Origin: Streptomyces sp. NBS 14/10
Lineage (GTDB): Bacteria; Actinomycetota; Actinomycetes; Streptomycetales; Streptomycetaceae
Assembly: GCF_002224125.1 (NCBI RefSeq)
Contig: NZ_NCSM01000038.1
Location: 20,753-61,261, forward strand
Direction of reading: 5' to 3'
DNA: 40,509 bases
Shown here: positions 20,678-40,509 of the stretch, one piece after another
Layout of the letters: each line of letters begins with the position of its first letter
Position numbering within the stretch: position 1 is the stretch's first letter
Notes under the pieces: generated by a model
Told to the model about the DNA's origin: nothing
Database searches by the model: none
What the model saw: only the letters and a program-made list of their open reading frames with translations
Made by a program: the position numbers and the translations under genes

Positions 20678-21099
<422 letters not shown>

Positions 21100-21640
21100 G
21101 GCTCAGGCTCAGCGGACCGCGCTTCCTGGTGAGGATGTCGCCGGCCAGATCGTTGCCGATCTGGCCGCGCAGATCCTGGCCTTGGAGGACCGGCTCAAGC
21201 GGATCGACCGGCAGATCTGCGAGGCGTTCCGCTGCCATCCGCAGGCGGAGATCATCGAGTCCCTGCCCGGCATGGGCCCGATACTGGGGGCCGAGTTCGT
21301 TGTCGCGGCTGGTGACTTGTCCGCATATGCGGACGCGGGCCGTCTCGCTTCGGCGGCCGGGCTGGTGCCGGTCCCGCGTGACTCGGGACGCCGGAGTGGC
21401 AACATGCACCGGCCCAAGCGCTACAGCCGACGCCTGCGACGGGTGTTCTACATGTCCGCGCAGGTCAGCATCACCCGCGAGGGGCCGAACCGGGACTTCT
21501 ACCTCAAAAAGCGAGGTGAGGGCTGCAAACACGTCCAGGCCGTCATCGCCCTGGCCCGCCGACGAGCAAGCGTGCTGTGGGCGCTCCTACGCGACAACCG
21601 CGTCTTCACCCCTGCCCCGCCGATCGCGCAAGCGGCTTGA
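21100..21640 (+). pseudogene. IS110-family transposase, truncated copy
   Basis: The last 180 codons of an IS110 recombinase, almost identical to the C-terminal part of the intact gene at 39195-40397 (from [17 protein letters not shown] on). It keeps the transposase_20 domain, including [19 protein letters not shown] and the segment [16 protein letters not shown] that bears the catalytic Ser. The N-terminal RuvC-like domain and the whole left end with the bridge RNA were removed by the 1210-bp IS ending at 21099. The right end is intact: after the stop comes the terminus GGCATTGAGA, the CT core (21655-21656) and the target half CCCAGAC. Confidence 0.88.
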
Positions 21641-21656
21641 CTCCGGCATTGAGACT

Positions 21657-37359: not shown

Positions 37360-38570
<1,211 letters not shown>

Positions 38571-38992
38571 CTCGCGGCGCAGGGTGCCGATGACACGTTC
38601 GCAGTGCGCGTTCATCCGTGGGGACCGTGGCGCGGTCCTCACGACCTGGATGTCGTCGGCTTTGAAGACCGCGTCGAAGGACTCGGTGTACTTCGCGTCC
38701 CGGTCACGGAGCAGGAAACGCAGCGAGTCCACCCGAACACCCAGCTCGACGACTAGGTTTCTCGCTTGCTGCACCGTCCAGGGCCCGGTGGGATGGGCGG
38801 TCACTCCCGCGATGTGCAGCCGGCGTGTGCCGTGCTCGAGGAACACCAGCGCGTACACCCGGCGCGGATCTACCAGGTCGATGTGGACGAAGTCGCAGGC
38901 GATGATGGATTGGGCTTGCGCCGTCAGGAAATCGTGCCATGTCGGACGGCTGCGGCGTGGGGCTGGATCGATGCCCGCCGCCGTGAGGATCT
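38571..38992 (-). pseudogene. IS3-like transposase 3' half, cut on both sides
   Basis: The minus-strand frame reads EILTAAGIDPAPRRSRPTWH, then IIACDFVHIDLVDPRRVYAL, LLRDRDAKYTESFDAVFKAD and RSPRMNAHCERVIGTLRRE, so all three DDE residues are present. The N-terminal part was separated by the IS110 insertion (it continues at 40412-40509) and the C-terminal end after TLRRE was removed by copy 2 of the 1210-bp IS. The codons at the IS110 junction are Glu-Ile-Leu of the conserved VWEIL stretch. Confidence 0.82.
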
Positions 38993-38994
38993 CC

Positions 38995-39190
38995 GTAAGT
39001 TGTTTGGTGGCCCGGGAGGGCCGGATGTGGCTGATGAGGATCTTGCCTTGAGCGTGGCTCTCTGGGAGTGGCCGTCCGGTTCTCCGGGGCGCCCTGACTG
39101 CTGATTGAGATATGCGTTTCGGTCGCTGATTACGGAGATGACAGCGGGGTGTTCCTCCGGCCGACAGAAGTCGTGTTGGGAACGAGGAGG
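38995..39190 (+). ncRNA. Predicted IS110 bridge RNA with four readable guides
   Basis: The left non-coding end holds two loops in the order known for IS110 bridge RNAs. Target loop: TGAGGATCT (39035-39043) equals the left target plus core (38984-38992), and TCTGGGAG (39061-39068) is the reverse complement of core plus right target (40412-40419). Donor loop: ATTGAGA (39104-39110) equals the element's right end (40405-40411), and TTACGGAG (39130-39137) is the reverse complement of its left end (38991-38998). Stems enclose each loop: CCGGA/TCCGG (39021-39025 with 39075-39079) and CTGCTG/CAGCGG (39098-39103 with 39142-39147). Exact RNA ends are unknown. Confidence 0.8.
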
Positions 39191-39194
39191 GCAC

Positions 39195-40397
39195 ATGAGC
39201 AAGGGGCGGGCTCGGGTGTGGGCCGGTGTCGACGCGGGCAAGGGACATCACTGGGTGGCGGTGGTCGACGAGACCGGCGCGACGGCGTGGTCCAGGAAGG
39301 TCGACAACGACGAGTTGGCGATCCTCGGTGCGCTCGGCGAGATCCTGGAGCTGGCCGACGTGGTCCACTGGGCCGTGGACATCTCCGGCACCGCTTCGGC
39401 GTTGCTGCTGGCTCTGCTCGCAGCTCATGGACAGCACGCTGTCTATGTACCCGGCCGCACGGTCAACCGGATGTCCGCAGCTTACCGGGGCGAGGCCAAG
39501 ACCGACTCCCGCGACGCCTACGTCATCGCCGAGACCGCCCGGCACCGACGGGACTTCGCCCCGATCGACGTGCCCGCGCAGCTGGCCGCTGACCTCGCGC
39601 TGCTGACCGGCCATCGCACTGACCTCGTGGCTGACCGGATACGGATGATCAATCGTCTGCGCGATGTGCTGACCGGTGTCTTCCCCGCGCTGGAGCGGGC
39701 CTTCGACTACTCGGCGCACAAGGGCGCGCTGGTCCTGCTGACCGGCTACCAGATACCAGCTGCTATCCGGCGCCGCGGGCGGGCCCGTCTTACGGCGTGG
39801 CTCGCCCATCGCGGTGTCCGGGGTGCCGACGTGGTGGCTGCCGCTGCTCTGGAGGCGGCTCAGGCTCAGCGGACCGCGCTTCCTGGTGAGGATGTCGCCG
39901 GCCAGATCGTTGCCGAGCTGGCCGCGCAGATCTTGGCTTTGGACGACCGGCTCAAGCGGATCGACCGGCAGATCCGCGACACGTTCCGCTGCCATCCGCA
40001 GGCGGAGATCATCGAGTCCCTGCCCGGCATGGGCCCGATACTGGGGGCGGAGTTCGTGGTCGCGGCCGGTGACTTGTCCGCATACGCGGATGCGGGCCGT
40101 CTCGCCTCGGCGGCCGGGCTGGTGCCGGTCCCTCGTGACTCGGGACGCCGGAGTGGCAACATGCACCGGCCCAAGCGTTACAGCCGACGCCTGCGGCGGG
40201 TGTTCTACATGTCCGCGCAGGTCAGCATCACCCGCGAGGGGCCGAACCGGGACTTCTACCTCAAAAAGCGAGGTGAGGGCTGCAAACACGTCCAGGCCGT
40301 CATCGCCCTGGCCCGCCGACGAGCAAGCGTGTTGTGGGCGCTCCTACGCGACAACCGCGTCTTCACCCCTGCCCCGCCGATCGCGCAAGCGGCTTGA
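39195..40397 (+). CDS. IS110-family RNA-guided recombinase (transposase)
   Basis: A 400-aa DEDD/serine recombinase. The N-terminal RuvC-like domain starts [20 protein letters not shown] (first Asp at residue 13), with further acidic residues at [19 protein letters not shown]. The middle is a coiled coil, and the C-terminal transposase_20 domain contains [19 protein letters not shown] and [16 protein letters not shown], which bears the catalytic Ser. GAGGAGGG lies 4 bp before the ATG. In this family the protein works with a bridge RNA that pairs with target and donor DNA, and the guide-bearing left end is intact here. Length and motifs are complete, so the element is probably active. Confidence 0.92.
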
Positions 40398-40411
40398 CTC
40401 CGGCATTGAGA

Positions 40412-40509
40412 CTCCCAGACCGTCGTCGAGCCGACCGGGTGTCCGAGCCGGACCAGTTCGCCCTGAATCCGTCGACAGCCCCAACGCGGATTCTCCCTGG
40501 CGAGCCGCA
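40412..40509 (-). pseudogene. IS3-like transposase 5' part, interrupted by IS110, cut by window edge
   Basis: The frame reads [20 protein letters not shown], then [12 protein letters not shown] and runs straight into the IS110 right end. It is the missing upstream part of the transposase half at 38571-38992: joining the two across one copy of GGAG restores GSTTVWEILTAAGIDPAP. The gene start lies outside the window. Confidence 0.8.

Follow-up and report, generated by a model that had tools for sequence, protein, structure and literature searches.

An IS110-family insertion sequence of Streptomyces whose predicted bridge RNA fits a conserved transposase motif, in a clade that mostly fits translation start sites

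Here, we analysed a stretch of 40,509 nucleotides from Streptomyces sp. NBS 14/10 (contig NZ_NCSM01000038.1; the whole stretch is referred to as the window), close to the right edge of which an IS3/IS481-like transposase gene is interrupted by another mobile element (Table 1). Sequence evidence confirms that positions 38991-40413 are an insertion sequence of the IS110 family, the left end of which encodes a predicted bridge RNA. The element consists of a 204-base non-coding left end, a gene for a 400-aa recombinase and a 14-base right end ahead of the core. The recombinase that a previous sequence-only reading had proposed proved to be full-length, with the DEDD RuvC-like and Transposase_20 domains of the family, a length within its 300-460 aa range, and scores above the curated cut-offs (PF01548, 157 bits, and PF02371, 71 bits, each above the gathering score; NF033542, 241.5 bits against a cut-off of 140). 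The long, RNA-bearing left end ahead of the gene is that of the IS110 group; the IS1111 group carries its RNA in the right end, according to the part of PMC11208160 consulted, and membership of that group does not apply because the right end of the window element is too short. The nearest named relatives are Streptomyces elements, with protein identity of up to 89%; in an alignment of 393 columns with relatives, the best identity is 90%. Both the family and the bridge RNA mechanism, which was published in 2024, are already known, and the window element is a new member.

The boundaries were read from a site elsewhere in the genome, at C66:66556-66793, where the target is uninterrupted, so that the target reconstructed in the sequence-only reading is real. 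Of the aligned bases, 139 of 141 in the left flank of the element and 97 of 98 in its right flank agree with this empty site. Four bases, CTCC, belong to both matches and are all that the junctions share, as expected of scarless insertion at a short core with no further target duplication. Because of this overlap, the inserted piece and the site TGAGGAT-CT-CCCAGA are certain except for the exchange point within CTCC. The previously proposed CT core does lie within both junctions; its exact placement, given that CTCC is common to the two, follows from analogy with IS621, the core of which is CT.

Table 1. Features of the insertion, its predicted bridge RNA and the interrupted gene (window coordinates)
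Feature	Position (strand)	Description
Second, truncated copy	21098..21656 (+)	Recombinase residues 221-400 and right end; at STVWE motif
Target gene, downstream part	38571..38990 (-)	IS3/IS481-like (rve) transposase, EILTAAGIDPAPRR..., cut at 38571 by the end of another element
IS110-family insertion sequence	38991..40413 (+)	About 1.42 kb; core CT at both ends (38991-38992, 40412-40413); from empty site
Left tip CTCCGTAAG	38991..38999 (+)	Right donor (RD) in the circle; reverse complement ends GGAG
-10-like box TAAGTT	38996..39001 (+)	Joined to right-end -35 box in the circle, 17-base spacer; putative promoter
Predicted bridge RNA	39008..39190 (+)	Start about 7 bases past -10 box, predicted from junction and stems; end nominal
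Target-loop stem, 5' arm	39015..39031 (+)	Pairs with 39071-39085
Left target guide (LTG) TGAGGATCT	39035..39043 (+)	9 bases, core CT included
Right target guide (RTG) TCTGGGAG	39061..39068 (+)	8 bases, reverse complement of CTCCCAGA
Target-loop stem, 3' arm	39071..39085 (+)	Stem conserved in alignment
Donor-loop stem, 5' arm	39086..39099 (+)	Pairs with 39143-39155
Left donor guide (LDG) ATTGAGA	39104..39110 (+)	7 bases, matches right end, core not included
Right donor guide (RDG) TTACGGAG	39130..39137 (+)	8 bases, reverse complement of left tip CTCCGTAA
Donor-loop stem, 3' arm	39143..39155 (+)	Stem conserved in alignment
IS110 DEDD recombinase	39195..40397 (+)	400 aa, no internal stops
-35-like box TTGACT	40394..40399 (+)	Overlaps recombinase stop codon
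Right tip CATTGAGA	40404..40411 (+)	Left donor (LD); contains antisense ATG
Donor, joined RE-LE ends		CATTGAGACTCCGTAAG
Target gene, upstream part	40412..40509 (-)	...VGSTTVWE, runs beyond the window

The interrupted gene encodes HTH and rve domains, with Pfam scores below the gathering thresholds for this partial piece, and its minus strand reads STTVWE-ILTAAG across the insertion. The window lineage sits at the conserved STVWEIL motif of IS3/IS481-like transposase genes, and the window copy, lying inside an open reading frame, does not show the start-codon specificity of IS900. Two other copies in the genome are truncated, one in the window and one on contig C66, and both, as read by eye, end at STVWE in other transposase genes. 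Over the last 258 bases of the element, the three copies are 96.9-98.8% alike, against 74-78% for their right flanks, so that they look like separate insertions at one motif; the guides of the two truncated copies are unreadable because their left ends are gone. A further truncated relative from another species, L113, which lacks the right end, has the same target-loop guides and lies at the corresponding transposase site, ILHAAGVDPAPRR; compared with the window, its left flank is 73% and its left end 92% alike, and the transposase has diverged. The 15-base target occurs in the genome in 3 exact and 12 one-mismatch copies, and 74 places lie within two mismatches, compared to 10 for a backward control. 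Across the genus, 9 of 101 genomes contain an exact copy, and none contains one of the control. When the longest frames at 12 exact 15-mer sites were inspected, five showed STVWEIL directly, one (L191) belonged to another gene, and one (L193) was the empty-site copy itself, read in another frame. As a side observation, one sequence, ...AATAAAGACACCCTTCA, cuts both the truncated copy, at about 21098, and the target transposase, at 38571; it is apparently the terminus of a further repeated element, the IS481/IS3-like transposase of which lies at 37381-38499.

All four guide matches that had been read by eye (9, 8, 7 and 8 bases) are present at their places in the left end, in the order LTG, RTG, LDG, RDG. 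The pairing of the left guide TGATGAGGATCT with the target GCCGTGAGGATCT ends at nine bases with an A/G mismatch. Among 100,000 first-order Markov sequences of the same composition, the guide strings appeared with frequencies of 0.41% (LTG), 2.0% (RTG), 2.2% (LDG) and 0.12% (RDG), and 63 random left ends contained two of them, with none containing three or four. The strings were picked after the sequence had been viewed, so that the comparative test carries more weight than this estimate.

For that comparison, loci were drawn from named genomes (80), from the matches listed for 392 genus genomes (30 among them) and for 394 family genomes (a further 30 among them, some genomes being shared with the genus search), and from 4 plasmid regions. 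The resulting set of pattern-matching loci comprised 101 distinct left-flank/target-loop pairs, window and L113 included. Left guides matched their own flanks at 7.90 of 10 positions, compared to 4.97 for permuted pairs (z 20.5; 61 distinct guides, a one-base shift being allowed in own and permuted pairs alike), and right guides at 7.24 of 9, compared to 5.03 (z 11.8; 37 distinct guides). On either side, 0 of 20,000 permutations, in which kinship was handled solely by collapsing identical guides, scored as high. With 46 of 61 left and 25 of 37 right flanks, the own guide ranked among the best of the whole set, the poorest right guide being that of L055, with 4 of 9 positions matched. An earlier run with a fixed left register gave the same picture (5.45 of 10, permuted 4.07, z 8.1); it used the first set of 73 rows, 8 of 81 (80 loci and the window) having been dropped for want of a recognisable target loop. 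On the donor side, left tips CCGTAAG, CCCTAAG and CCTTAAG go with RDG variants TTACGG, TTAGGG and TTAAGG, respectively, a comparison of three variants made without a permutation test. The best match lies outside the RDG in L037, which has none, and in L075, the RDG of which is visible in the alignment; L042, L043 and L064, among others, score 7 of 9. Thus, in the alignment of related elements by which the sequence-only reading was to stand or fall, both target guides covary with their own targets and the donor guides fit the element's own ends, as expected of a bridge RNA.

The guide pairs were also read as being enclosed by stems, and compensatory changes in relatives support each stem. The target-loop helix is paired in 99.3% of cells across 40 left ends, with two-sided changes at 5 of 15 pairs, one of which switches from G-C to A-U in 17 of the 40 sequences; the donor-loop helix is paired in 100% of cells across 22 sequences, with two-sided changes at 3 of 13 pairs. 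The first alignment (A1) holds 40 of the 41 picked sequences, L037 being left out owing to deletion of its donor loop, and the second (A2) holds 22. Three helices together contain 35 cells with two-sided changes, against a mean of 11.8 in shuffled and 0-3 in slid controls, a comparison that favours the tested pairs because these were drawn from consensus folds of the same alignments. One of five measures for the donor stem, further pair types, did not exceed the shuffles (455 of 500). The two internal loops in conserved stems come from the alignments and differ from the minimum free energy fold of the window sequence: the single-sequence fold is branched, does not contain the two-loop layout and pairs the left tip with the RDG (z -2.3). 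An Rfam search of 38900-40509 returned no family at threshold, the single match below it being malK-III (19.6 bits against 50).

Joining of the right and left ends in a circle would create a promoter-like sequence. All 58 distinct RE-LE junctions contain TTGACT (42), TTGACA (15) or TTGATT (1), a spacer of 17 bases and TAAGTT or a close variant with a TAAG or TGAG box; in L024, for which the script scored an earlier TAAG, the 17-base spacing was taken by eye, and in three of the 58 (L034, L035 and L162), a second element adjoins the right tip, so that the two letters at the core position are foreign to the first. Given the predicted start near 39008 and the target stem at 39015, a 5' stem-loop like that of IS621 and the left tip would both fall outside the RNA. 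In L034, L035, L162 and L187, foreign sequence begins at the right tip, CATTGAG, in all four cases. In L034 and L035, it is a second IS110-type element of about 1.5 kb with a 438-codon open frame (MDVVHERCAGIDIGKADVK...), beyond which the interrupted sequence resumes with ACTCC; the left end of the foreign element contains, in all four loci, CATTGAGTAGGAC, a guide-like copy of the tip CATTGAG. The arrangement suggests that one bridge-RNA element uses another as its target.

The sequence-only reading, the guide layout of which is supported, had missed both the transposase-gene target and the sites used by the rest of the clade. A start codon reading away from the element lies 4-7 bases past the CT core in 84 of the 101 distinct flank/loop pairs, and in 79 of the 101 a frame of 60 codons or more begins there. 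By comparison, 20,166 points picked at random in the same flanks give 4.5% and 2.5%, respectively, and 1,256 CTCC points there give 5.1% and 3.3%. Most right targets read CTCC, complementary to the Shine-Dalgarno core, and 54 of 73 right flanks begin with it. Guide and target agree at the start-codon position, which in the guide is the AT of CAT: 47 pairs show it on both sides, 2 in the guide only (the window and L102), 1 in the target only (L043) and 11 on neither. Of the four plasmid regions, two have the start codon of an annotated CDS five bases from the element, one (L203) has its nearest annotated CDS start 61 bases off and a 48-codon frame at the ATG, and one (L204) is without annotation. 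Five distant plasmid copies (51-75% identity) show the same tendency: in four (L205, L207, L208 and L209), the start codon of an annotated CDS lies 5-6 bases away from the left tip, and in L206, from Mycobacterium, it lies further off. Collectively, these observations indicate that the RNA of the clade spells a Shine-Dalgarno/start-codon site. The donor and most targets are alike in build (CAT-spacer-CT-CC), and because the left tip in the window's subgroup is itself CTCC, the host gene would retain GGAG at the old distance from its start codon.

Most likely, the window lineage arose from relatives with guides spelling the start codon (AT of CAT) on the left and the Shine-Dalgarno sequence (GGAG) on the right. 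The sister of the window element in a 68-row protein tree, in which support near the window is weak, is L039 (SH-aLRT 89), a start-codon inserter with the guide TTATGAGGTCT against TGATGAGGATCT in the window. Relative to L039, the window guides have an additional A in the LTG and two substitutions in the RTG, each of these three differences fitting the motif, as well as one change outside the match. Target type would need at least six changes on the tree, the starred branches forcing two. Start codons are taken as the earlier target because they prevail in the clade; the tree itself cannot tell gain from loss, so that the direction of change is a probable one. Other targets include a DDE_3 transposase gene of the IS630 type, which is hit by L060, with L106 and L108 at the same site, and a DUF317 gene, hit by L019 and its kin; the guides of both groups fit their own sites without the start-codon letters. 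Non-start-codon targets were also found at L021, L036, L044, L092 and other loci. It is conceivable, and we propose it tentatively, that the bridge RNAs of the clade represent a general gene address, start codon plus Shine-Dalgarno sequence, from which lineages were re-aimed, probably several times and by few guide-base changes, at multi-copy genes of mobile elements (IS3/IS481-like, and DDE_3 in L060, L106 and L108) and at others, such as DUF317; together with the second IS110-type element at the right tip, this would amount to RNA-guided hyperparasitism among transposons.

The explanation that we consider highly probable is RNA-guided IS110 insertion, involving a circle, a junction promoter, a bridge RNA, exchange at CT and a target in a transposase motif. 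We rate it so because the comparative tests matched the predictions of the model, the single-sequence fold being the one that did not. Under this explanation, the element would excise as a circle in which the right-end -35 box joins the left-end -10 box, and the resulting promoter would start the bridge RNA at about 39008. The RNA would fold into two stem-loops, the first of which would pair with the target TGAGGATCTCCCAGA, the LTG with the bottom and the RTG with the top strand, and the second, through the LDG and RDG, with the joined ends of the element, CATTGAGA-CT-CCGTAA. The recombinase would then exchange strands at the CT core, as for IS621. The target of the window lineage would be DNA coding for an (A/S)STVWEIL-like motif of IS3/IS481-like transposases, a multi-copy site.

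Several other readings deserve consideration. The window copy could be an ordinary start-codon seeker, its guide unchanged, that landed on a look-alike site, GGGAGATCCTCAC, combining a Shine-Dalgarno sequence, a spacer and a near-start codon. The guide indeed keeps AT at the start-codon place of its relatives, where the target has GT, so that the window is listed as discordant, and relatives sharing one guide fit sites with 2-4 mismatches of 10. However, nine contiguous bases on the left and eight on the right match, the motif is occupied by three copies here and by L113 elsewhere, all three guide changes relative to L039 within the match fit it, and further target copies are still present in the genome (3 exact, 12 with one mismatch), all of which makes the look-alike site an unlikely explanation.

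Accidental landing aside, the copies at STVWE motifs might owe their spread to gene conversion or to duplication of a nested unit. The target family is certainly large, the two flanking pieces giving 27 and 21 matches in the genome, including those of the window itself, but right flanks that are 74-78% alike, against 97-99% within the element, and the position of L113 in another species, in a transposase that has diverged (73% alike in the left flank, 92% in the left end), render such spread improbable. Least credible, and in our view close to untenable, is the possibility that the matches are by-products of short constant strings, with the recombinase reading DNA directly and the RNA having no role. 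Most guides and targets do share the constant strings GGAG and AT, but the variable positions covary on their own (z 5.2 for spacer positions 3-6, z 9.6 for right positions 5-9), and guides whose targets have no start codon at that place fit their own targets well (8.46 of 10, compared to 4.73, z 8.7; 13 distinct guides). Furthermore, IS621 depends on its RNA, as described in the part of PMC11208160 consulted.

The proposed RNA-guided insertion resembles that of IS621 from Escherichia coli in its CT core. Further shared features, described for IS621 in the part of PMC11208160 consulted, are the order of the guides, LTG, RTG, LDG, RDG, the logic of top and bottom strands, the RNA in the left end and the promoter across the RE-LE core. 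In the consensus of IS621, a 5' stem-loop precedes the two loops (same source), for which the predicted start of the window RNA would leave no room; REP elements are named in that paper as targets of IS110 elements such as IS621. Also comparable is IS116 of Streptomyces clavuligerus, the left end of which has the same RNA layout, with a recombinase 65% identical to that of the window (L205, annotated as IS116 family). Its guide fits a start-codon target (LTG ATGGTGGTT against the flank CATGGTGGTT), at which an annotated NTF2-like CDS starts; unlike the window element, IS116 has the donor tip TCCCTAAG and another core. Other transposons also serve as landing sites for IS4321/IS5075 of the IS1111 group, another case from the RNA-guided class, which land in the terminal inverted repeats of Tn21-family elements (title cited in PMC11187229, consulted in part); unlike the window element, those target repeat ends, not a transposase coding motif.

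IS900 of Mycobacterium avium subsp. paratuberculosis targets translation initiation signals, according to the title of Doran et al. 1997, as cited in the part of PMC8141618 consulted. Like IS900 by its published description, most relatives of the window element lie at start codons and most have an antisense frame, hed of IS900 spanning the whole element; unlike IS900, the window copy lies inside a coding sequence. An antisense ATG is located at 40404-40406, five bases inside the right tip, and a frame of at least 100 aa opens in 62 of 69 distinct elements, compared to 20 aa in the window. We considered this frame as a hed-like gene and set it aside, codon use being sufficient to explain its openness: the three sense codons able to stop it are not rarer than in host genes, and there is accordingly no evidence that it codes.

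Taken alone, the guide reading is a clean new example of a known mechanism; the class of target and the natural retargeting series are the newer part. In the literature searched, which was mainly open and is weak evidence of absence, we found no description of start-codon-directed bridge guides, or of guides redirected or aimed at transposases; likewise, no paper in the mainly open literature searched treats a bridge RNA together with IS900, and the main texts of PMC11208160 and PMC11187229 make no mention of IS900. We offer guide pairing as an explanation for the IS900-type preference for translation start sites. The value of the present case lies in a natural series of close relatives with readable targets, among which the window lineage and its sister L039, a few guide bases apart, use different classes of site, a probable instance of guide change in nature; such a series makes it testable how bridge RNAs gain new targets.

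Two further IS110 elements, L003 and L002, are located in the same genome on contigs C58 and C61, with a protein identity of 54%. Their left ends have a similar general layout (GTGTGGCTATCAGG...TGGCTGA...), differing in guides and ends, and the gene of L002 contains one internal stop codon.
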